A stretch of DNA of 34,086 bases from the IMG/VR virus record IMGVR_UViG_3300028837_002953, positions 1 through 34,086 of that record; one strand, 5' to 3'. The translations under genes were made by a program, and so were the position numbers. A model generated the notes under the pieces. The model had not been told where the DNA came from. It saw only the letters and a program-made list of their open reading frames with translations, and searched no databases. This DNA comes from a virus. Each line of letters begins with the position of its first letter. The first letter of the stretch is position 1. Shown here piece by piece: positions 9,945-24,672 of the stretch.

Positions 9945-10082
9945 GTGGCGTGTAAATGGTTCCTTCGCCGGGACTTATATCGGAAGACCGCGACGGGAAC
10001 AGTCGGGCGTCAGTTCTTTGTTTGTTGCGCGCGAAAACGCACCGTAAGTGACCAGGAGAAAAGGACATGGATGTCACGCTGA
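9945..10082 (+). CDS. Small Cys-containing ORF before the methyltransferase
   Basis: 45 residues from GTG 9945, preceded by AGAGGAGGAGAG, one of the strongest ribosome sites in the window. The product is basic and aromatic (ACKWFLRRDLYRK; GRQFFVCCARKRTVS) with three cysteines. It overlaps the next gene's start (10067) by 16 bases, so the two may be coupled. An ATG-started frame at 9844 (67 residues) overlaps it but has no ribosome site. Function unknown; a small metal- or nucleic-acid-binding protein is only a guess. Confidence 0.4.
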   Translation: MACKWFLRRDLYRKTATGTVGRQFFVCCARKRTVSDQEKRTWMSR

Positions 10083-12214
10083 TGAAGGTGGACGACGTCA
10101 AGCCGTACGAGGGCAACCCCCGCGTCAACGACCCCGCCGTGGACGCCGTGGCGGCGTCGCTGCGGGAGTTCGGGTTCCGCCAGCCGATCGTCGTGGACGA
10201 GGCAGGAGTCATCATCGTCGGCCACACGCGATGGAAGGCGGCGAAGAAGTTGGGACTGGCCAAGGTGCCGGTGCACGTGGCCAAGGACCTCTCGCCGGAG
10301 CAGGCGAAGGCCTACCGGCTCGCCGACAACCAGACGAACACGCTGGCCGAGTGGGACTACGAGCTGCTGCCCATCGAGCTGAAGGATCTCCAGGCGGCGG
10401 ACTTCGACCTGGACCTGCTTGGCTTCGACACGGAGGCCCTGGCGCAGCTCCTGGACGGCCGCGTCCAGGAAGGGCTGACCGACCCGGACGAGGTGCCCGC
10501 GCCGCCCGACGAGGCGGTCACACGCCCGGGAGACCTGTACATCCTCGGCCAGCACCGGCTGCTCTGCGGCGACAGCGGCAAGCCGGAGGACGTCGACCGC
10601 CTCCTGGACGGCCAGCCGGTCCACCTGGTCAATACCGACCCGCCCTACAACGTCAAGGTCGCCTCGCGGTCGAACAATGCCATCGCCGCTACAGGCGACC
10701 GCCCCATCGGCCAGCAGGGCATGGACATGGCCATTCGTGGCAAGACGCACGCGACGGACAAGAAGCTCCGGGCCAAGGACCGGCCGCTCGTGAACGACTT
10801 CGTCTCCGACGAGGAGTTCGCCCGGCTCTTGCGGGCCTGGTTCGGCAACATCCAACGCGTGCTGGAGCCCGGGCACAGCGCGTACATCTGGGGTGGGTAC
10901 TCGAACATCTGGAACTACCCCAACGCGCTGAGGGAATCCGGGCTCTACTTCAGCCAGATGATCATCTGGGTCAAAGAGCACCCGGTCCTGACGCGCAAGG
11001 ACTTCATGGGCAACCATGAGTGGTGCCAGCCGCCTGACACATCAGTACTTACGCCCTGCGGCTCGGCGTCCATCGCTTCGCTGCGCAACGGTGACCGTGT
11101 GGTCAGCTTCAGCACCCGTTCATCCGCAGTAGTGGGCCTACGGCATGGGATGGAGGTCATGACGACCCGTCGCGACTACCGCGGCCCGCTGTACGGCGTT
11201 GTGGTCGGCGACCGGAGCAGCTGGTGCACGGACGGACACGTATGGAGCGTGAAGATGACCCCGAGGGCGAGCGACGTGTGGTGCGTCTACTTGATGCAGC
11301 GCGGCGCCTGGTGGCGCGTGGGGTCCGCCAAGCTTCGCGGGACCTGGGGGTTTGGGGTCAAGCAGCGGCTGAGTACCGAGGGCGGCGAGGCCGCATGGGT
11401 GCTGAGCATCCACCCCACGAAGGGGGATGCGGCGGTGGCCGAGCAGATCGTCTCGACCACCTACGGGATCCCGACAACGTTCTGGCGCGAGTCGCCCAGC
11501 TCCCAGCGGTCAGACGCACAGATCCGGAGCATCTACGAGGTTCTCGACCCGGACCAGCTGGAACGGGGAGCGCGGCAGGCGCTGGCCGATCACCACCGGG
11601 ACGTGCTCTATCCCTTCCTCAGGCGCGGCCGGACTCGCGCCAAGCACGGATGCCGCGTTCCGCTTCAGGTTCGCGCGTGCAATTTGCTGCCCGACGTCAT
11701 GGCCGTCCCCGTCCCCCGTGACGGGCAGCGGTTCGAGTGGGTTCCCATCCGAGCGGTGGACGTGCAGTCCTACGCCGGGCCTGTCCATTCGATGGCGGTC
11801 GATAAGCACCGCCACTACATCGCGGACGGGATTGTCACGCACAACTGTTTCTACTCGTGGCGCGAAGGCGCCGCGCACCGGTTCTTCGGCCCAGCCAACG
11901 TGACGGACGTCTGGTCGGTCAAGAAGGTCAACCCGCAGTCGATGGTGCATTTGACCGAGAAACCGGTCGAGCTGGCCGTGCGGGCCATCCAGTACTCATC
12001 CCAGACGGGCGAGAATGTCCTGGACCTGTTCGGCGGCTCCGGCAGCACGCTGATCGGTTGCGAGCAGACGGGGCGCCGGGCATTCCTCATGGAGATCGAC
12101 CCGCTGTACGCGGACGTGATCGTGCAGCGCTGGGAGAAGTTCACGGGCCGGAAGGCGGAGAGGATTTGCTCGTCGGAGCCGCAGTCTGCGGCGAAGCAGT
12201 CGCAGGAGGATTGA
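10067..12214 (+). CDS. ParB-domain DNA methyltransferase interrupted by an intein
   Basis: 715 residues as encoded, 441 after removal of a 274-residue intein. Residues 1-~110 are a ParB/Srx-like domain (PYEGNPRVND; GHTRWKAAKKLG at 52-63). Next comes an N4/N6-type DNA methyltransferase: catalytic DPPY at 191-194 and, after the intein, the SAM-binding DLFGGSGST at 653-661. With DPPY first and FxGxG last, the order is that of class beta enzymes. The intein (320-593) splits the conserved block NHEW/CFYSWREGAAH. Such phage enzymes methylate adenine or cytosine, typically to mask phage DNA from restriction; target base and site cannot be read here. A good ribosome site (AGGAGAAAAGG) precedes ATG 10067. 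The last 74 bases are overlapped by a leftward gene. Confidence 0.9.
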   Translation: MDVTLMKVDDVKPYEGNPRVNDPAVDAVAASLREFGFRQPIVVDEAGVIIVGHTRWKAAKKLGLAKVPVHVAKDLSPEQAKAYRLADNQTNTLAEWDYELLPIELKDLQAADFDLDLLGFDTEALAQLLDGRVQEGLTDPDEVPAPPDEAVTRPGDLYILGQHRLLCGDSGKPEDVDRLLDGQPVHLVNTDPPYNVKVASRSNNAIAATGDRPIGQQGMDMAIRGKTHATDKKLRAKDRPLVNDFVSDEEFARLLRAWFGNIQRVLEPGHSAYIWGGYSNIWNYPNALRESGLYFSQMIIWVKEHPVLTRKDFMGNHEWCQPPDTSVLTPCGSASIASLRNGDRVVSFSTRSSAVVGLRHGMEVMTTRRDYRGPLYGVVVGDRSSWCTDGHVWSVKMTPRASDVWCVYLMQRGAWWRVGSAKLRGTWGFGVKQRLSTEGGEAAWVLSIHPTKGDAAVAEQIVSTTYGIPTTFWRESPSSQRSDAQIRSIYEVLDPDQLERGARQALADHHRDVLYPFLRRGRTRAKHGCRVPLQVRACNLLPDVMAVPVPRDGQRFEWVPIRAVDVQSYAGPVHSMAVDKHRHYIADGIVTHNCFYSWREGAAHRFFGPANVTDVWSVKKVNPQSMVHLTEKPVELAVRAIQYSSQTGENVLDLFGGSGSTLIGCEQTGRRAFLMEIDPLYADVIVQRWEKFTGRKAERICSSEPQSAAKQSQED
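11024..11845 (+). mobile_element. Intein with GIY-YIG-like insert
   Basis: The coding segment for residues 320-593 has all splicing landmarks. It begins with Cys320, has TDGH (388-391; the TxxH block B), ends HYIADGIVTHN with His-Asn at 592-593, and is followed by Cys594. Between the splicing blocks, residues ~405-470 read CVYLM...WWRVGSAK...GVKQRL...AEQIVSTTYGIP. This resembles a GIY-YIG nuclease core (GIY, YIG, Arg, Glu459) in degenerate form. Homing by DNA cleavage would follow if active. Removing it restores an uninterrupted methyltransferase motif. Splicing residues are seen directly; the endonuclease type is a moderate-confidence match. Confidence 0.85.
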
Positions 12215-12974: not shown

Positions 12975-13357
12975 TTTACTTGGCGTCTCCGTACACACGC
13001 CCCGATCCGGCCGTCCGCCAGTGGCGGTTTGAGGCCGCCTGCCGGGCGACGGCTCGGATGATCTGCGAGGGCATGTTTGTCTTTTCGCCGGTGGTCGACT
13101 CGCACCCGTTGACGCTCTACGGCCTGCCCGGCGACTGGGACTTCTGGCAACGCTACGACCGGGCCCACCTGGAGCGGTGCGACCGGTTCATGGTGCTGGC
13201 GCTGGACGGCTGGCGGGAAAGCAAGGGCGTGCAGGCTGAGATGGCGATCGCGAGGGAGTTGGGCATGCCGGTGCGGATGGTCAAGCCGGCGGAAGTGGGA
13301 ATCAGGGCTGAGAGCGCCCCGGCCGCGTGGACCGGGGCGCCGGAGAGGGCTGGTTGA
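12971..13357 (+). CDS. DUF1937 family protein (deoxyribosyltransferase-like)
   Basis: 128 residues from GTG 12971, overlapping the previous stop (GTGA). It starts MIYLASPYTRPD and continues with ARMICEGMFVFSPVVDSHPL, a middle with WDFWQRYDRAHLERCDRFMVLALDGWRES, and KGVQAEMAIARELGMPV. This is the DUF1937 pattern, related to nucleoside 2-deoxyribosyltransferases (SPYT...; D-x-x...E). A role in nucleotide metabolism or base exchange for phage DNA is suggested by the fold, but no substrate can be stated. It is convergent with the leftward gene ending at 13366, and only 8 bases separate them. No terminator is visible between the two. Confidence 0.8.
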   Translation: MIYLASPYTRPDPAVRQWRFEAACRATARMICEGMFVFSPVVDSHPLTLYGLPGDWDFWQRYDRAHLERCDRFMVLALDGWRESKGVQAEMAIARELGMPVRMVKPAEVGIRAESAPAAWTGAPERAG

Positions 13358-15921: not shown

Positions 15922-16784
15922 GCAATGATCGACGACAGAGGGCCCTGGTGCAGCTTGTGGCAAACGCCGAGGCGGTTTCGCGCAGGCATCGAGAGGAGAT
16001 CGAGCGCCTCGCTCCCGTCAAGCCAGGCGGCACGGCGTTCCTCCCCGGCTACGCTCCGTACATCGGCTCCGACTACTTCGCGGACCGAACAAAAGGGCGT
16101 CGGGTGCTGTTCTACGCGCTCAGCCAGAACCTCCACGATGGCTATGAGCCGGCGAAGACCTGGGCGGAAGAGTGGTCAATCGGCTTGGACCGACAGAACC
16201 ACTCGTATGCGTGCGAGGGAACGGCCGCGATGCACCCCTTTGACACTGGCCACATCCCCGTCCTGGCTTCGCTGATTCGTTCGAGCCTGTCGGCCAAGTT
16301 GCCTGGTCCCGGAGAGAGCATCTACCCCGAAGTGGCCGCCACGAATCTCTCGAAGTTCTCTTTCCGCAGCCCCGACAGGAGGCTGGCGATCGACGACATT
16401 GACAGCCTTCGTCTCTGCTGGGAGTGGTTCTCACGGCTGGAGGTGGACGTGCTCTGCCCAGATGTCATCGTCTGTCTGGATGCCCGTGTGCATCGCATCG
16501 TGCGCCGCGAGCTTGGCGACAGGCGCGGCATCATCCGGCTGCCTTTCCCCAGCCTGCGTGTGATCAACAGGCACTACCGGAAGCCGCTTTGCGCAGGCCA
16601 CCTGTCGGCTCAGCAGATCTGCAGACGGATCGCCGCATGCGACCTTCATCGACACGTGGGCCACAACCATACATTGGCAAGTCTGGTTGAACGCGATGTC
16701 TACTACTTCGCCGAAGTCAACCGTCGGGTGGTTCCCAAGCTTGAAGGGGTCGCCGGGAGGGATCTGACACCACATGGCGATTGA
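15918..16784 (+). CDS. Unrecognised 288-residue protein inserted in packaging module
   Basis: Starts at an ATGA overlap with the previous gene and overlaps the terminase start by 11 bases. Visible pieces are FLPGYAPYIGSDYFADRTK, RVLFYALSQNLHDGYEP, DVIVCLDARVHRIVRREL and LPFPSLRVINRHYR. The order (a 'GxxPY' loop near the start, a parallel-sheet-like middle and a PS-x-x-x-N motif late) resembles the uracil-DNA glycosylase fold, but the match is loose and key residues cannot be confirmed. GC is lower than in the flanking packaging genes. It may be cargo placed between two HTH-bearing genes. The coding call is solid; the function is unknown. Confidence 0.6.
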   Translation: MSNDRRQRALVQLVANAEAVSRRHREEIERLAPVKPGGTAFLPGYAPYIGSDYFADRTKGRRVLFYALSQNLHDGYEPAKTWAEEWSIGLDRQNHSYACEGTAAMHPFDTGHIPVLASLIRSSLSAKLPGPGESIYPEVAATNLSKFSFRSPDRRLAIDDIDSLRLCWEWFSRLEVDVLCPDVIVCLDARVHRIVRRELGDRRGIIRLPFPSLRVINRHYRKPLCAGHLSAQQICRRIAACDLHRHVGHNHTLASLVERDVYYFAEVNRRVVPKLEGVAGRDLTPHGD

Positions 16785-19050
16785 CCCGTCCAGGCTGACG
16801 CAGTCGGAGCTGCTCCAACTCGTCAACGCCACGCCGTTGGGCGCGGTGCTGACGCGGTCGCGCCTGCGCCGGCAGATGGACGCCGGGGCCCTGCGCTTCG
16901 GCGACGGCACGCACATCCACCTGGTGCGCTACGTCCGATGGCTCGTCGGCGAGCTGGACAAGCCCCGGCCGGCGAAGATGGACTACGCCGAGGCCAAGCG
17001 CCGCCAGGCCCAGCGCAACCGCGCCGCCACCAAGGCCGCCCAGGACATCTACCCCATCCCCGAGATCGCCGACCTCGACCGCCGCAACGCCTGCGGTGAT
17101 TCGTTCAAGCTGTTCTGCCAGACGTACTTCCCGCGGGCCTTCTGGCGGCCGTGGTCGGACGACCACCTCCGCGTCGTCGCCAAGATCGAGAAGGCCGTCC
17201 GCGAGGGGGGCCTGTTCGCCTTCGCGATGCCCAGGGCCAGCGGTAAAACCAGTTTGGCCCGCTGCGCCGCGCTGTGGGCGGTGCTCTACGGCTACCGGCC
17301 GTTCGTGTGCATGATCGCCGGCAGTCAGGGCAACGCCCGCGAGCTGCTGCGCCCCATCCGGATCATGGTCCTGGAGGAGCCGCTGCTCCTGGAGGACTTC
17401 CCTGAGGCGGTCCACCCGTTCCGCTGCCTGGAGAACTCCTCGAAACGCCAGGGCCAGCAGCACATCCAGGGCCAGCTCACGCACGTCCACTGGGGGCTGG
17501 ACAAACTCGTCTTCCCGACGATCGAGGGCGAGCACCTGCCCATGGAACTGCGACAGGACGGCTACGAGACCAGCCCGTCATCCGGCTCGATCATCACGAC
17601 GACCAGCCTGGACAGCCACCTCCGTGGGCAGCAGCACACGCGGGCGGACGGGTCGATCATCCGGCCGTCGCTGGTGCTGCTCGACGATCCGCAGACGCGG
17701 GAGTCGGCCCGATCGGCCGACCAAACGAAGAAACGCCTCGACCTGCTGCACGGCGACGTGATGGGCATGGCCGGGCCCGGCGAGTCGATCTCGGCGCTGC
17801 TGACCTGCACGGTGATGTACGAGGACGACCTGGCCGACACGCTGCTGGACCGCGAGAAGTCGCCCGAGTGGGACAGCGAGCGGACGAAGCTCGTCTACGC
17901 CTGGCCGACCAGCCAGAAGCTCTGGGAGCAGTACGCCGACATCCGCAAGGCCAAGGGCCGCAACGCCGCGACGGAGTTCTACGCCGCCCGCCAGGCCGAG
18001 ATGGACGCCGGCACGGCTATCGCCTGGCCGGCCCGGTTTGATGCGAAGGTCGGGGAGATCAGCGCCATCCAGCACGCCATGAACCTGCGCCTTCGGATGG
18101 GTCCCGAGGGTTTCGCCGCCGAGTGCCAGAACGAGCCGGTGCTCCAGCAGACGGCCGACGGCGCCCTGACCGTCGAGCAGGTGATCGAGAAGGTCAACGG
18201 CCACAAGCGCCGCGAAGTGCCGCCCACGGCCACGCGGCTGACGATGTTCGTGGATCTCCACGACAAGCTGCTGTTCTACGCGGTATGCGCGTGGCAGGAG
18301 GACTTCACCGGCTTCATCGTCGAGTACGGCACGTTCCCCGACCAGCGGCGGAGCGTGTTCACGCTGGCGGACGCCTCGCGCACGCTCGGCCGGGCGTTCC
18401 AGGGCATGGGCACCGACGGCGCCATCCACGCCGGGCTGAAGAAGCTCATGTGCGAGCAGCTCTCCCGCGAGTGGAAGCGCGGCGCGGGCCTGTTGAAGAT
18501 CGACCGGCTGCTGGTGGACAGCGGCTACAAGCCGGGGATCGTTGCCGCAGTCCAGCGCGAGGTCGGTTCCGCCGCCGTCATGCTCTCCAAGGGCGTGGGC
18601 GTCCGTGCCAGCCGCAAGCCCTTCGCCGCCTACACGCAGAGGCCCGGCGAAGTCCTCGGCAACCACTGGTACATCCCCAACGTCCGCCGCACGGCGCAGT
18701 TCCCGCACGTCTTGGTGGACACGAACTACTGGAAGAGCTTCGTCCACACCGGCTTGCTTACGGCGCCGTCGGACCGCGGCTGCATCAGCCTATACGGCAC
18801 GGCGAAGACCAACCACGTGTTGTTCGCCGAGCACATCGCGCGTTCGGAGCGGTGGGTCGAGGTCACGGGCCCGTACGGCACGGTCCGCGAGTGGTCGGTC
18901 CTGCCGACCAAGCCCGATAACCACTGGCTGGACTGCCTCGTCGGCTGCGCCGTCGCGGCGAGCATGCTCGGCGTCCGCGTCCCCGGCCAGGACGCCAAGC
19001 CGGTGCGGAAGCGGAGGCGCTACAGCCAGGAAGACCTTCGGCGGAGATAG
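16774..19050 (+). CDS. Large terminase with fused N-terminal HTH-like domain
   Basis: 758 residues. Residues ~1-65 form a helix-turn-helix-like domain similar to the small protein at 15610. After a basic linker (EAKRRQAQRNRAATKA) comes the packaging ATPase: Walker A-like PRASGKTS (153-160), Walker B LVLLDDP (300-306) and the SSGSIITTTS segment (269-278). The nuclease half has D494 (MFVDLHDKLL), D582 (RLLVDSGYKPG) and D715/D720 (PDNHWLDCLVG), the acidic residues expected of the RNase H-like fold. It would cut concatemers and drive DNA into the prohead through the portal. It is followed directly by a zinc ribbon gene. Family assignment is firm; the exact terminase subgroup (GpA-like versus others) is uncertain. 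Confidence 0.88.
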   Translation: MAIDPSRLTQSELLQLVNATPLGAVLTRSRLRRQMDAGALRFGDGTHIHLVRYVRWLVGELDKPRPAKMDYAEAKRRQAQRNRAATKAAQDIYPIPEIADLDRRNACGDSFKLFCQTYFPRAFWRPWSDDHLRVVAKIEKAVREGGLFAFAMPRASGKTSLARCAALWAVLYGYRPFVCMIAGSQGNARELLRPIRIMVLEEPLLLEDFPEAVHPFRCLENSSKRQGQQHIQGQLTHVHWGLDKLVFPTIEGEHLPMELRQDGYETSPSSGSIITTTSLDSHLRGQQHTRADGSIIRPSLVLLDDPQTRESARSADQTKKRLDLLHGDVMGMAGPGESISALLTCTVMYEDDLADTLLDREKSPEWDSERTKLVYAWPTSQKLWEQYADIRKAKGRNAATEFYAARQAEMDAGTAIAWPARFDAKVGEISAIQHAMNLRLRMGPEGFAAECQNEPVLQQTADGALTVEQVIEKVNGHKRREVPPTATRLTMFVDLHDKLLFYAVCAWQEDFTGFIVEYGTFPDQRRSVFTLADASRTLGRAFQGMGTDGAIHAGLKKLMCEQLSREWKRGAGLLKIDRLLVDSGYKPGIVAAVQREVGSAAVMLSKGVGVRASRKPFAAYTQRPGEVLGNHWYIPNVRRTAQFPHVLVDTNYWKSFVHTGLLTAPSDRGCISLYGTAKTNHVLFAEHIARSERWVEVTGPYGTVREWSVLPTKPDNHWLDCLVGCAVAASMLGVRVPGQDAKPVRKRRRYSQEDLRRR

Positions 19051-20504: not shown

Positions 20505-20766
20505 GCTTCAGAAGGGCTGGGGCCATCCCCGATTCAGTGCTTGGCCCGAAACGCGCGCTTGTCTCAGCGAAGAGCGCCTGCGGTACAGGCACGAGCCGCG
20601 ATGGGCAGACTGGCCTCGGTATGCGGCGAATGGTGGAGCAGTTGTGATACATGTGGCACAATCTGCGCTGCGAGAACTGAATGCCCTTGGAGCGCGCATT
20701 CTCGTGGGGTAGGCTGAGTACGCGCGAACAGCACTGCCGCGTTGATAAATGAATATCGCCCAAAGG
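20505..20766. other. Non-coding stretch after the propeller gene
   Basis: No gene is supported in the ~260 bases after the propeller stop. Short frames on both strands are present but have neither ribosome sites nor recognisable content. An AT-richer segment (TTGTGATACATG near 20642 and TTGATAAATGAATAT near 20742) could hold a promoter for the region downstream; no matched -35/-10 pair is convincing. Confidence 0.35.
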
Positions 20767-20803
20767 CAGGGCTGGCCAGCCCTGAGCCTTCGGAGACGAA
20801 GCT
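20767..20803. repeat. 18-bp perfect palindrome plus adjacent hairpin
   Basis: CAGGGCTGGCCAGCCCTG (20767-20784) is a perfect inverted palindrome. It is followed by AGCCTTCGGAGACGAAGCT (20785-20803), a stem of seven pairs with one bulged C around a GAGA loop. They immediately precede the terminator at 20805. Three consecutive structures in 75 bases suggest a structured RNA end or a recognition site; the role is unknown. Confidence 0.55.
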
Positions 20804-20804
20804 G

Positions 20805-20847
20805 AAGCCCGTCGAATCGTGCACGACGATCCGGCGGGCTTTTTCTT
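20805..20847 (+). terminator. Strong intrinsic (Rho-independent) terminator
   Basis: The stem AAGCCCGTCG (20805-20814) pairs with CGGCGGGCTT (20832-20841) over 10 bp with one T-G wobble. A U-tract (TTTTTCTTT) follows from 20840. The 17-base loop contains an internal palindrome (TCGTGCACGA). It would end transcription of the propeller gene and insulate the head operon downstream. Confidence 0.75.
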
Positions 20848-20857
20848 TGGGCGCTAC

Positions 20858-20928
20858 AGCGGGAAGAGCCCTGGTGGGCTGGTGGGTCTCATGCGTCCGC
20901 CGCGGCCGGTTCGATTCCGGCTCCCGCC
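20858..20928 (+). tRNA. tRNA-like fold, anticodon CAU
   Basis: A cloverleaf can be folded. Acceptor GCGGGA (20859-20864) pairs with TCCCGC (20922-20927), with an A-C mismatch at the first pair. The D-stem is AGCC/GGCT around CTGGTG. The anticodon loop CTCATGC (20888-20894) gives CAT, with U33 present. The variable loop is 5 bases. The T-arm is excellent: GCCGG, loop TTCGATT, CCGGC (20905-20921). Weak points are A instead of U at position 8, three wobbles in the anticodon stem, an extra base before it, and no encoded CCA. It could be a degenerate phage tRNA(Met/Ile2) or a tRNA-mimicking RNA. Confidence 0.45.
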
Positions 20929-20950
20929 TTCGCCTGTCGGCTACGGCGGG
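20923..20950. repeat. Hairpin overlapping the tRNA-like 3' end
   Basis: CCCGCC (20923-20928) pairs with GGCGGG (20945-20950) around a 16-base loop (TTCGCCTGTCGGCTAC). The stem uses the 3' strand of the tRNA-like acceptor, so the two folds are mutually exclusive. The sequence, ending GGCGGGCAGG, resembles dispersed palindromic repeats of GC-rich genomes; that likeness is from memory. Confidence 0.4.
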
Positions 20951-20973
20951 CAGGCCCGCGATGAGGTGGAGCG

Positions 20974-21174
20974 ATGGCAGACGACCTGAAGGACGCGATC
21001 AAGCAGAACGCCGAAGGGCCCAAGCAGGCCGGTGCGGACGGCGTCAACGTCCAGCAGCACTCGCTGGACGACCAGATCGCCGCAGACAAGTACCTGGCCG
21101 GCAAGGAGGCCGTCTCCAAGAACCCCGCCAAGGCGTTCGTCCGCGTCAAGATCGTCCCCCCGGGAACCGTGTAA
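20974..21174 (+). CDS. Small head-joining-position protein (gpW-like position)
   Basis: 66 residues from ATG 20974, ribosome site GAGGTGGAG. The sequence (MADDLKDAIKQNAEGPKQAG; NVQQHSLDDQIAADKYL; AKAFVRVKIVPPGTV) is helical with a conserved-looking 'IVPPG' end. In lambda-like phages the gene between terminase and portal encodes the head-tail joining protein W, of similar length. Position and size agree; sequence identity with gpW is not evident, so the function is inferred. It is separated by two bases from the portal start. Confidence 0.55.
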   Translation: MADDLKDAIKQNAEGPKQAGADGVNVQQHSLDDQIAADKYLAGKEAVSKNPAKAFVRVKIVPPGTV

Positions 21175-21176
21175 CG

Positions 21177-22637
21177 ATGGGATGGTGGCCATTCACAAGG
21201 CGAAGCAAGCGAGCCGGCGCCACGGCGCACACGGTGGTCGTCCGGGCCAAGTTCGACTCGGCGCAGACCAACGCGGACAACCGGCGGCACTGGGCGAACG
21301 CCGACGGGCTGTCGGCCGACGCCGCGGCCAACCCCGGGGTTCGGCGCATCCTCCGCAACCGCGCCCGCTACGAGGTGGCGAACAATTCCTACGCCCGGGG
21401 GATCGTACTCACGCTGGCCAACGACGTCGTCGGCACGGGGCCGCAGCTCCAGATGCTCAGTGACAGCACCGAGGTCAACCAGGCCGTCGAGCGGGAGTTC
21501 GCCGCGTGGGCGAAGGCGGTGGACCTGCCCGGCAAGCTCCGCACCATGCGGATGGCCCGGGCGCAGGACGGGGAGGCGTTCGCGGTCCTGTTCAACAACG
21601 ACGGGCTCGACAGCCCCGTCAAGCTCGACCTGAAGCTCGTCGAGGCCGACCAGGTCGCCACGCCGTCGGCGAAGATCAAGCAGGCCCCCAACGCGGTGGA
21701 CGGCATCGTCTATGACGAGTCCGGCAACCCGAAGGAATACCACGTCCTGAAGGCCCATCCCGGCGGAGGCGCCGCCAGCGCCGCACTCGACTTCGACCCC
21801 GTGCCGGCCGACAGCGTGGTCCACTGGTTCCGCGCTGACCGGCCTGGCCAGCGTCGCGGCCTTCCGGACATCCTGCCGGCGCTGCCGCTGTTTGCGCAGC
21901 TCCGCCGTTACACGCTGGCGGTCATCCTGGCGGCCGAGTCGGCGGCGAACGTCGCCGTGCTGATGAAGACCAACGCCCCGGCCGGCGGGGAGGCGGCGGA
22001 AGTCGAGCCCATGACGGAGATGGAGTTCGTCCCGAACATGGCCGTCTTCACGCCCGAGGGCTGGGAGCCGCAGCAGGTCAAGGCCGAGCAGCCGGCCACC
22101 ACCTACGACATGTTCAAGCGGGAGGTCCTCAACGAGATCGCCCGTTGCCTGAACATGCCGTACAACATCGCGGCCTGCAACAGCAGCGGCTACAACTACG
22201 CCTCGGGTCGGCTGGACCACCAGACGTACTTCAAGAGCATCCGCGTCGAGCAGTCGCACATCGAGACGGTCGTCCTGGACCGCATCCTCGAGGCGTGGCT
22301 GGCCGAGGCCACCAAGGCCCTCGGCCTGGGGCAGCTCGGTGATGCCTCCCACCAGTGGTTCTGGGACGGCCACGAGCACGTTGACCCCGCCAAGGAAGCC
22401 AACGCCCAGGCCACCCGCCTGGCCAGCAACACGACCACGCTCGCCGCGGAGTATGCGCGCCAGGGCAAGGACTGGGAGACGGAACTGCGTCAGCGCGCCA
22501 AGGAAGTCGCGCTGACGAAGGAACTGGGGCTGACGGCCGCGCAGGCGGCGCCAGCGGATCCGGCGGATCGGCCGGACGTCACGGAGGACGACGATGAAGA
22601 CGACGAAGACGAGCGTCAAGAATCCCGAGCCGCGTGA
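21177..22637 (+). CDS. Phage portal protein, lambda-type
   Basis: 486 residues from ATG 21177 (MGWWPFTRRSKRAG). A longer in-frame opening at 20742 is rejected because it crosses the non-coding island and the small joiner gene. Visible landmarks are NSYARGIVLTLANDVVGTGP, MARAQDGEAFAVLF, RGLPDILPALPLFAQLRRYT, ARCLNMPYNIAACNSSGYNY, and a C-terminal Ala/Asp/Glu tail. This is the lambda B-type (phage_portal_2) layout. Twelve copies would form the DNA entry ring and anchor the terminase and tail connector. The last 44 bases overlap the protease-capsid gene start. High confidence. Confidence 0.88.
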   Translation: MGWWPFTRRSKRAGATAHTVVVRAKFDSAQTNADNRRHWANADGLSADAAANPGVRRILRNRARYEVANNSYARGIVLTLANDVVGTGPQLQMLSDSTEVNQAVEREFAAWAKAVDLPGKLRTMRMARAQDGEAFAVLFNNDGLDSPVKLDLKLVEADQVATPSAKIKQAPNAVDGIVYDESGNPKEYHVLKAHPGGGAASAALDFDPVPADSVVHWFRADRPGQRRGLPDILPALPLFAQLRRYTLAVILAAESAANVAVLMKTNAPAGGEAAEVEPMTEMEFVPNMAVFTPEGWEPQQVKAEQPATTYDMFKREVLNEIARCLNMPYNIAACNSSGYNYASGRLDHQTYFKSIRVEQSHIETVVLDRILEAWLAEATKALGLGQLGDASHQWFWDGHEHVDPAKEANAQATRLASNTTTLAAEYARQGKDWETELRQRAKEVALTKELGLTAAQAAPADPADRPDVTEDDDEDDEDERQESRAA

Positions 22638-24672
22638 GCTGGACCTCGCGGCGTCGCTGACCATCGAGGCGGCCGAGGCGCCGCCGGAAGGCGGTGTCGG
22701 AAAACCCCGCAACCGCCGCTTCACGATGGTCGCCTACACCGGCGGCCCCATGCGGATCGCGGGGTTCTCCTATCCCGTCGTCGTGGACCTGGCCGGGCTG
22801 GACCTGGCCCGCGCGTCGTTCCCCGTCTTCGTCGGTCACCAGCAGGATCCCGACTATCTGCTCGGCCAGGCCGACCGCGTCGAGGTGGTCGGCACGAACC
22901 TGGTGGCCAGCGGCGACGTGATCGACGTGGCGCCGAAGGCCCGGCAGGTGGTGGAGGCACACGATCGCGGCTTCCGCTGGCAGGCGAGTATCGGGGCCCT
23001 GGTCCTGGCGCGTGAGTACGTCCCCGAGGGCCGAACCATCAACGTCAACGGAAGCGCCCTGTCGGGCCCGTTCATCGTCGCCCGGAAGGCCGAGTTGGGC
23101 GAGATCAGCTTCGTGTTCAGCGGGGCGGATCGCAACACATCCGCCGTCATCGCGGCCGGTGCAAGAAGAGCCGGCAAGGAGAACCCAATCATGGACGAGA
23201 ACGTGAAGGACAACACGGATGTTGCCTGCCTGCCGGCCAGGCAGGTCGAGGGCAAGGAGCAGACGGGCGGCGAGAAGGCCGAGAAGATCGAGGCGCAGGC
23301 GAAGACCGCGACGGGCACCCCCGACGCCGCCGACGCGGTGACGACCGACCCCGTGGCCGACATGCGCGCCCAAGCCGCAGCCGAGCAGGAGCGGATCGCG
23401 GCCGTGCGGAAGGTCTGTGGCGACAAGCACGCCGAGATCGCCGCGAAGGCCATCGCCGAGGGCTGGGACGTGACGAAGACGGAGCTGGAGGTGCTCCGGG
23501 CCGATCGGCCCAAGGCGCCGGCCGCGCACGTGCCGGACAACACGATGACGGGCACGATCCTCGAGGCCGCGTGCATGTTGACCGGCGGGGTCAAGGGCGA
23601 CGACGTCGTGGCCGCGTTCGGAGAGCAGGCCGTGGACACCGCCCACAAGCGCTTCCGCGGGGGCATCGGCCTTCAGGAGCTGCTGCTCGAGGCGGCGTGG
23701 GCCAACGGCTACGACGGGCGGAACTTCCGCGACAGCCGGGGCGTCCTGCGCTTCGCCTTCCGCCCGGACATCCAGGCGGGCCTGTCCACGATCGACATCG
23801 GCGGGATCCTGTCGAACGTGGCGAACAAGTTCCTGCTGGAGGGCTTCTTCAGCGTCGAGCGGACGTGGCGGAATATCTGCGCCGTCCGCAACGTCTCGGA
23901 CTTCAAGACCGTCACGAGCTACCGGCTGATCGGGCGCGATCAGTACGAGATCGTGGCGCCGGGCGGCGAGCTGAAGCACGGGACGCTCGGGGAGGAGTCC
24001 TACACCAACAAGGCCGACACCTACGGCCTGCTGCTGGCCATCGACCGGCGCGACATCATCAACGACGACCTCGGCGCCATCACGACCGTACCGAGGAAGC
24101 TCGGGCGGGGATCGGGCCTCAAGATCAACGACATCTTCTGGACCGTCTTCCTGGGCAACAGCGACTTCTTCAAGACGGCCAACAAGAACTACCTCACGGG
24201 GACGGACACGGTCCTGTCGATCGACGGACTGACGAAGGCCGAGGTGGCCTTCCTGGACCAGGTCGACAGCGACAACAAGCCCATCGGGATCATGCCGGCG
24301 ATCGTGCTGGTGCCCACGGCGCTCAGTGCGATCGGCACGATGCTCTACAAGAGCCTGGAGCTCCGGGACACGACGGCCAGCACGAAGTACCCCGTGGCCA
24401 ACTTCCACCAGGGCAAGTTCCGCACCGAGGTCAGCCGCTACCTGGCCAACAGCGCGTACACCGGCAACAGCGCCAAGGCATGGTACCTCCTGGCCGACCC
24501 GACGGACCTGCCGGTGATCGAGGTGGCGTTCCTGAACGGCCAGGAGAGCCCCACCATCGAGACGGCGGATGCGGACTTCAACGTCCTCGGCATTCAGATG
24601 CGGGGCTACCACGATTTCGGTGTCGCGCTTCAGGACCCCAAGGGCGGCGTGAAGAGCAAGGGCGAGGCGTAA
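22594..24672 (+). CDS. Prohead protease fused to major capsid protein
   Basis: 692 residues. The N-terminal ~190 residues are a U35/HK97-type prohead protease: His82 in FVGHQQDPDYLLG and Ser132 in FRWQASIGALV are the expected catalytic pair. A charged helical linker (~200-290; scaffold-like, KEQTGGEKAEKIEAQAK) follows. The C-terminal ~390 residues are a capsid protein (GLSTIDIGGILSNVANKFLL; NDDLGAITTVPRKLGRG; LVPTALSAIGTMLYKSLEL), with a gpT/HK97-like fold inferred. Fusion means the protease must cut itself free to mature the shell. The linker includes an 8-bp perfect DNA hairpin (CCTGCCTG/CAGGCAGG around 23226-23246). It overlaps the portal gene. No ribosome site is needed, as coupling is tight. 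Confidence 0.85.
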   Translation: MKTTKTSVKNPEPRELDLAASLTIEAAEAPPEGGVGKPRNRRFTMVAYTGGPMRIAGFSYPVVVDLAGLDLARASFPVFVGHQQDPDYLLGQADRVEVVGTNLVASGDVIDVAPKARQVVEAHDRGFRWQASIGALVLAREYVPEGRTINVNGSALSGPFIVARKAELGEISFVFSGADRNTSAVIAAGARRAGKENPIMDENVKDNTDVACLPARQVEGKEQTGGEKAEKIEAQAKTATGTPDAADAVTTDPVADMRAQAAAEQERIAAVRKVCGDKHAEIAAKAIAEGWDVTKTELEVLRADRPKAPAAHVPDNTMTGTILEAACMLTGGVKGDDVVAAFGEQAVDTAHKRFRGGIGLQELLLEAAWANGYDGRNFRDSRGVLRFAFRPDIQAGLSTIDIGGILSNVANKFLLEGFFSVERTWRNICAVRNVSDFKTVTSYRLIGRDQYEIVAPGGELKHGTLGEESYTNKADTYGLLLAIDRRDIINDDLGAITTVPRKLGRGSGLKINDIFWTVFLGNSDFFKTANKNYLTGTDTVLSIDGLTKAEVAFLDQVDSDNKPIGIMPAIVLVPTALSAIGTMLYKSLELRDTTASTKYPVANFHQGKFRTEVSRYLANSAYTGNSAKAWYLLADPTDLPVIEVAFLNGQESPTIETADADFNVLGIQMRGYHDFGVALQDPKGGVKSKGEA

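Follow-up and report, generated by a model that had tools for sequence, protein, structure and literature searches.

The systems closest to the locus analyzed here are the bacterial initiator tRNA (tRNA-fMet) and the copies of it that phages encode, the tRNA-Sec family, the late leader of phage lambda (PR'-tR') and the put RNA of phage HK022, and the tRNAs that punctuate polycistronic RNA, as in mitochondria. In the initiator tRNA, the 2:71, 3:70, and 4:69 pairs are named as formylation determinants (PMC9976931), and three G-C pairs at 29-31:39-41 are a feature of this tRNA (PMC11497404), while the put RNA is made up of two stem-loops close to the transcript start (PMC9378689). The reason for which phages carry tRNAs has long been debated. 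In the present case, only one kind of tRNA, the initiator, is involved, and it keeps to one gene junction, at fixed distances, in phages that are uncultured and probably of the Planctomycetota, which makes both the supply of a start tRNA and a role at the 5' end of the mRNA directly testable.

The window is the whole of a 34,086-base virus record (IMGVR_UViG_3300028837_002953) from an uncultured phage. On comparative evidence, the island between its terminase and portal genes is a real, conserved, structured RNA locus at the entry to the putative head operon, and it resolves into two conserved modules, a predicted terminator-bearing leader, followed by the gene of an initiator-type tRNA(CAU) (Table 1).

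The phage copies share with the bacterial initiator tRNA the CAU anticodon, a non-Watson-Crick 1:72, and the G2-C71, C3-G70, and G4-C69 pairs, as well as, mostly, A73, a purine 11:pyrimidine 24, and a canonical T loop. They differ in that the phage-family gene stands alone in the head operon, 2 or 10–14 nt before a gene start, with D arms that are unusual in types A and C, and with no encoded CCA in most copies; the window copy also lacks A73 and the G-C trio at 29-31:39-41. The Rfam model tRNA-Sec (RF01852), which is the best for both the window and locus L030, shares with type A a short D loop on a long D stem (UGGU). Its identity was rejected, as the scores (27.6–35.6 bits, the lower being that of the window) are under the 47-bit threshold and the anticodon is CAU, not UCA; the acceptor is also short, and there is no long variable arm. 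With the lambda and HK022 leaders, compared by architecture alone, the locus shares a promoter-like block, a structured leader, and a terminator ahead of structural genes, but here the terminator lies inside the leader structure, whereas put, a promoter-proximal RNA that acts in cis on RNA polymerase to carry it past terminators, serves early genes. As in tRNA punctuation, the tRNA abuts the next gene, so that its excision would define an mRNA end, although this is a bacterial virus, with one tRNA at one junction and processing that is predicted.

The reading preferred here, with a probability of about 0.5, is that of a leader with a terminator that must first be passed, followed by an initiator tRNA of the phage that, on being excised, would also leave the head mRNA trimmed. 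Transcription, read-through, processing, charging, and use in initiation are the steps that we infer. The island would be the control region heading the structural operon, in which transcription would cross a leader that is structured and has an intrinsic terminator built into it (t1 in the window, and t2 in most near relatives). The polymerase that reads through would then transcribe the initiator-type tRNA(CAU), the gene of 66 aa, the portal gene, and the rest. The tRNA would be cut out by host RNase P on the 5' side, and by RNase Z or exonucleases, with CCA addition, on the 3' side. Late translation would thereby gain an initiator tRNA encoded by the phage, and the head mRNA would at the same time acquire a new 5' end, either immediately ahead of the ribosome site or two bases ahead of the AUG.

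Genomic setting

The best portal relatives in the bacterial genome collections are nearly all from Planctomycetota MAGs, and the hosts are thus probably Planctomycetota. The best matches listed among 50,697 deposited phages are about 25–27% identical, with no close isolate; a search of the island DNA against the deposited phages found nothing, and a literature search on Planctomycetota phages recovered nothing relevant in the papers covered.

Table 1. Features of the window in and around the island (all positions are those of the window).
Feature	Position	Strand	Evidence or remark
Terminase large subunit	16774..19050	+	PHROG 38, 7e-28
NrdR-type zinc-ribbon protein, 72 aa	19053..19271	+	PF22811, 1.2e-7
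Cargo ORF, 410 aa	19272..20504	+	no family match
Conserved block TGATAAATGAATATC, directly upstream of t1	20743..20757	+	kept in 13 t1 relatives
t1 leader, branched (predicted)	20758..20852	+	outer stem encloses palindrome hairpin, GAGA hairpin, and terminator
18-nt perfect palindrome CAGGGCTGGCCAGCCCTG, hairpin arm of t1	20767..20784	+	own reverse-strand match
UUCG-GAGA-CGAA hairpin with GAGA loop, arm of t1	20785..20803	+	compensatory changes in L013, L029, and L248
Intrinsic terminator, stem-loop (~20805-20841), then TTTTTCTTT	20805..20848	+	-23.2 kcal/mol
Putative initiator-type tRNA(CAU) gene, type A, diverged	20858..20929	+	ARAGORN tRNA-Met(CAU); homologues with covariation
Palindromic insert, 32 nt, immediately 3' of acceptor-stem base C71	20928..20959	+	fold z -1.8
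Shine-Dalgarno-like GAGGTGGAG	20963..20971	+	sequence
Conserved 66-aa gene ahead of the portal	20974..21174	+	kept in nearly all relatives
Portal protein	21177..22637	+	PHROG 21, 7.5e-61
Protease/head gene	22594-24672		follows portal in gene order

The cargo ORF, which the original prediction called a propeller gene, is present, among the relatives, only in the near-copy of the window. The slot that it occupies, between the zinc-ribbon gene and the leader, is a variable cargo site, which is empty in some relatives and holds up to several kb in others. This variable cargo suggested an integron-attC-like cassette site, which was set aside, given that the conserved parts behave as a terminator and a tRNA. 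In many relatives without cargo (L015, L016, L028, L031, L032, L040, L041, L050, and L090), a near-palindrome, TTCCATATMTGGAA, possibly an operator, lies just 3' of the zinc-ribbon gene. The 66-aa protein matched nothing in Pfam or PHROG, and no family name could be assigned, although its gene sits at what we take to be the position of lambda gpW. Elsewhere in the window (10067-12214), a ParB N-terminal domain is fused to a DNA methylase.

The structured leaders

The five foldable elements originally claimed for 20767-20950 are all present in the sequence, and the island as a whole (20740-20970) folds at -121.6 kcal/mol, in comparison with -102.2 ± 4.8 in shuffled sequences, none of 200 being as good. 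Two corrections are necessary, however. The first three hairpins are enclosed by an outer stem (GCCCAAAG/CTTTGGGC, 20758-20765/20845-20852), so that the element begins at 20758 and forms a single branched unit, t1, while the final hairpin is a palindromic insert of its own, which few relatives share.

The terminator hairpin alone folds with a z of -5.2 relative to shuffles, and the G+C-rich stem-loop and U-tract expected of an intrinsic terminator are found here and conserved in the t1 relatives. A simple terminator scan of the window did not list it, for which the long stem and the mismatches within it are the probable reason. In the 14 distinct copies of t1, 98.4% of the cells are paired, and 25 cells have changed on both sides, in comparison with 8.6 (maximum 13) in shuffles that leave relatedness in. 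The compensations fall in the palindrome hairpin, where an A-U pair is replaced by G-C in L306, in the GAGA hairpin, and in the terminator stem, where they are found in the t1 relatives.

The block directly upstream of t1 has the family consensus TGAaAAcYGAATAyT, and a simple sigma-70 scan called no promoter there, nor any standard promoter at the leader. Given that only 5 nt separate t1 from the tRNA in the window, the tRNA would most simply be reached by read-through.

In most other near relatives, the same place is occupied by another leader, t2, which is also branched and contains a terminator, but is of a different kind, and for which 51 sequences were compared. Here, 115 cells have changed on both sides, in comparison with 29.7 (maximum 51) in shuffles that leave relatedness in, and a promoter-like conserved block (CTTtG ... 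tAgAaT ... CA) lies directly upstream. The outer stem of t2 joins bases located 5' and 3' of the U-tract of the terminator, and it is thus probably the read-through RNA that is under selection, with a hairpin at the level of the DNA as an alternative. By eye, the 5' strand of the t2 terminator hairpin (e.g., L010 ~920-950) has two alternative partners (X, X', X''), and this hairpin may thus alternate between two forms, one short and one long.

Among the matches listed, the t1 and t2 patterns are found only in contigs of this phage family, and they precede the 66-aa gene wherever that gene is in view, the L303 contig showing the terminase only. No Rfam family matched t1 or t2 in the loci searched, and this, together with the strong covariation, makes them candidates for new terminator/antiterminator RNAs.

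The initiator-type tRNA

The sample of the 80 nearest portal loci, which is unbiased as to the tRNA, has the tRNA element ahead of the 66-aa gene in 22 cases, including decayed copies and the near-copy of the window. Extending this set with loci from MAGs and with a T-arm pattern search, which is biased toward that T arm, brought the non-redundant loci with the element at this place to 47, and the D arms define six lineages (A–F). In L201, the terminase of which is 45% identical, the gene preceding the portal is an unrelated one of 65 aa, and the tRNA again lies close to its start, at a distance of 4 nt.

The cloverleaf of the window alone has a folding z of only -1.55, and the folding energy is thus no proof of a tRNA. 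The support comes instead from the ARAGORN call and from compensatory changes in the homologues, which are consistent with a tRNA fold. In type A, 98.3% of the cells are paired, with 6 double-change cells in comparison with 2.0 in shuffles, while type B is 100% paired, with 14 in comparison with 5.7, the shuffles leaving relatedness in in both cases; type B pairs are flipped at 27:43, 28:42, and 29:41. When the partners are slid as a control, pairing of the tRNA falls to 32–48%. At its thresholds, Rfam lists nothing in the window, where the tRNA is below gathering, although five type B copies reach 57–61 bits for the Rfam tRNA model (RF00005; gathering 29). The original prediction had proposed that covariance be sought in homologous islands, and that the fold be submitted to tRNA tools. 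As covariation is present in the related phages, and the fold is accepted by ARAGORN in the window and by RF00005 in the relatives, neither of the two computable outcomes that were to count against the prediction was observed.

In the 36 tabulated phage copies, G2-C71, C3-G70, and G4-C69 are universal (36/36), and 1:72 has no Watson-Crick pair in 33, being A:G, A:A, A:C, G:A, or C:A in 29 and U:G in four. The remaining three (C:G) are all of type D, which also has an elongator-type 11:24 pair, and these three copies look like elongator tRNAs. The Planctomycetota initiator genes that were read have U:U or C:U at 1:72. All the tabulated copies have CAU in a 7-nt loop, with C33 in place of U33 in L008. 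The G-C trio at 29-31:39-41 is complete in L036 and L248, type A relatives with C31-G39, and type B has U29-A41.

The window copy has an A1.C72 mismatch, and thus no Watson-Crick pair at 1:72, it has the three G-C pairs at 2:71, 3:70, and 4:69, and its anticodon loop (CTCATGC) presents CAU in 7 nt with U33. It lacks the trio at 29-31:39-41, where only 29:41 is G-C (30:40 is G-U, and 31:39 is U-G), and it has no encoded CCA. In place of the A73 of most relatives, it has U73, owing to the palindromic insert that overlaps its 3' end. Excising this insert restores the junction of the relatives (CTCCCGC|GA..SD), and just three relatives (L052, L206, and L235) have an insert of the same type at this point. 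These features argue strongly for an initiator identity in the intact relatives, and less so in the window copy, which fails in two of them and is a diverged variant in which charging and initiation activity may be reduced or lost.

Variation in the anticodon arm bears on the possibility that the tRNA replaces a host initiator tRNA that is destroyed or depleted during infection, by VapC-type tRNases, for example, with its place in the operon being a matter of convenience. The VapC toxins cut the initiator tRNA, and changes in the anticodon loop have been proposed to protect phage tRNAs (PMC10264068). The phage copies do vary at positions 37 and 38 of the loop and in the anticodon stem, while five host initiators all have CTCATAA, but replacement leaves the fixed spacing to the head gene unexplained, and is considered unlikely.

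Spacing to the head gene

The distance from N73 to the AUG of the 66-aa gene is exactly 2 nt in nine listed loci, to which L239 adds another case, and 10–14 nt in around two dozen, while larger distances reflect palindromic or other insertions, or an alignment that misplaced the start codon. Types A, B, C, and E are all represented in the 2-nt class. A Shine-Dalgarno sequence is absent before the 66-aa gene in this class, but present in the 10–14-nt class, and the zinc-ribbon gene of the 2-nt-class contigs has one wherever the gene was found. An ORF starts within 22 nt of the tRNA in 37 of 41 family tRNA-Met genes, in comparison with 24% of other tRNAs. Pairing in cis between the anticodon and the adjacent AUG was rejected on the general geometry of the tRNA, given that a 2-nt linker is too short to bridge the acceptor end to the anticodon.

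The absence of a Shine-Dalgarno sequence from the 2-nt class also fits an alternative in which the tRNA fold serves the head mRNA chiefly as a signal for RNA processing (punctuation), or as a mimic of a tRNA that acts in cis, and in which the adaptor role is secondary or has been lost. The acceptor and T-arm part of a tRNA is what RNase P and RNase Z recognize, and that part alone would set the 5' end of the mRNA. In the phages, it is precisely the acceptor and T arm that are invariant across lineages A and B (in a set partly biased by the T-arm search), while the D and anticodon arms vary, and the copies that have lost the CAU loop (L013, L206, and L268) keep the tRNA shell. A pure signal would have no need, however, of the compensatory changes that repair the anticodon stem, nor of the CAU and 7-nt anticodon loop kept in all the intact copies, which leaves this explanation rather improbable.

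The preferred reading, in which excising the initiator tRNA of the phage would also trim the head mRNA, is supported by the conserved structures and their covariation, the CAU and initiator features, the fixed place and spacing, and the 2-nt class without a Shine-Dalgarno sequence. The lost features and interrupted 3' end of the window copy, the decayed copies, the dispensability of the element, and the elongator-like type D count against it. A bolder form is tentative, and on balance doubtful. In this form, t1 and t2 would be leader RNAs of a new kind that act in antitermination, a tRNA located 3' of them would punctuate a phage structural operon, and the excision of this tRNA would yield both a nearly leaderless head mRNA, with a 5' leader of 2 nt, and the initiator tRNA that such messages need. 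A literature search for tRNA excision coupled with leaderless phage messages found none.

Decay, exchange, and origin

A quick portal tree requires at least 19 switches between presence and absence of the tRNA, and the element is thus dispensable and exchanged. In G003, a serine recombinase gene overlaps the host initiator tRNA, with a family prophage alongside, and in G007, a serine recombinase and a family prophage are found within ~36 kb of the host initiator tRNA, which suggests that some members integrate at this tRNA, and could have captured it. In L407 (7844-9325), a large serine recombinase gene adjoining a family prophage runs at its 3' end (GLEPVTSRL) into the host initiator tRNA, a likely site of integration.

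A captured host initiator tRNA might be no more than a decaying passenger, functionless at a recombination hot spot, with the terminator merely insulating the cargo gene. The overlap of a serine recombinase gene with the host initiator tRNA beside a prophage of the family (G003), the absence of the tRNA from many relatives, the several broken copies, and the neighboring cargo site would all fit this history. A relic would hardly be expected, by contrast, to show compensatory changes, a kept CAU, and quantized spacing over portals that are 51–86% identical, and the passenger explanation is accordingly judged quite unlikely.

The original prediction offered a structured RNA or a packaging/attachment site, and it is the former that the covariation and the tRNA tools bear out, while the latter found no support. 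The 3' ends of tRNAs are common att sites, the island is near the terminase, and a relative apparently integrates at the host initiator tRNA. The tRNA stretch is nevertheless contiguous from terminase to portal in Planctomycetota MAG contigs (e.g., L316), no duplicated tRNA end was found in the loci checked, and the conserved features are a tRNA and a terminator, the bases of which obey the pairing rules of RNA and the identity rules of tRNAs. We thus regard a role in packaging or attachment as highly improbable. An attachment site in the terminase–portal interval was rejected on the host initiator-tRNA neighborhoods of G003 and G007, where the junction does not fall in this interval and no duplication of the tRNA end was found.

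The tRNA of L029 has lost half of its T arm. A 20-nt palindrome, CCTGCCTGCCGGCAGGCAGG, or a near copy, which resembles a small mobile palindromic repeat, has been inserted in the variable loop of the tRNA or after t2 (L007 2239-2330; L029 4694-4772; L005 and L015, after t2). One family prophage has a further CAU element, also like type A, at another place (L408 ~12990-13050, minus strand; G003:C10 ~317990-318050), where it is interrupted by a hairpin between the acceptor stem and the D arm.
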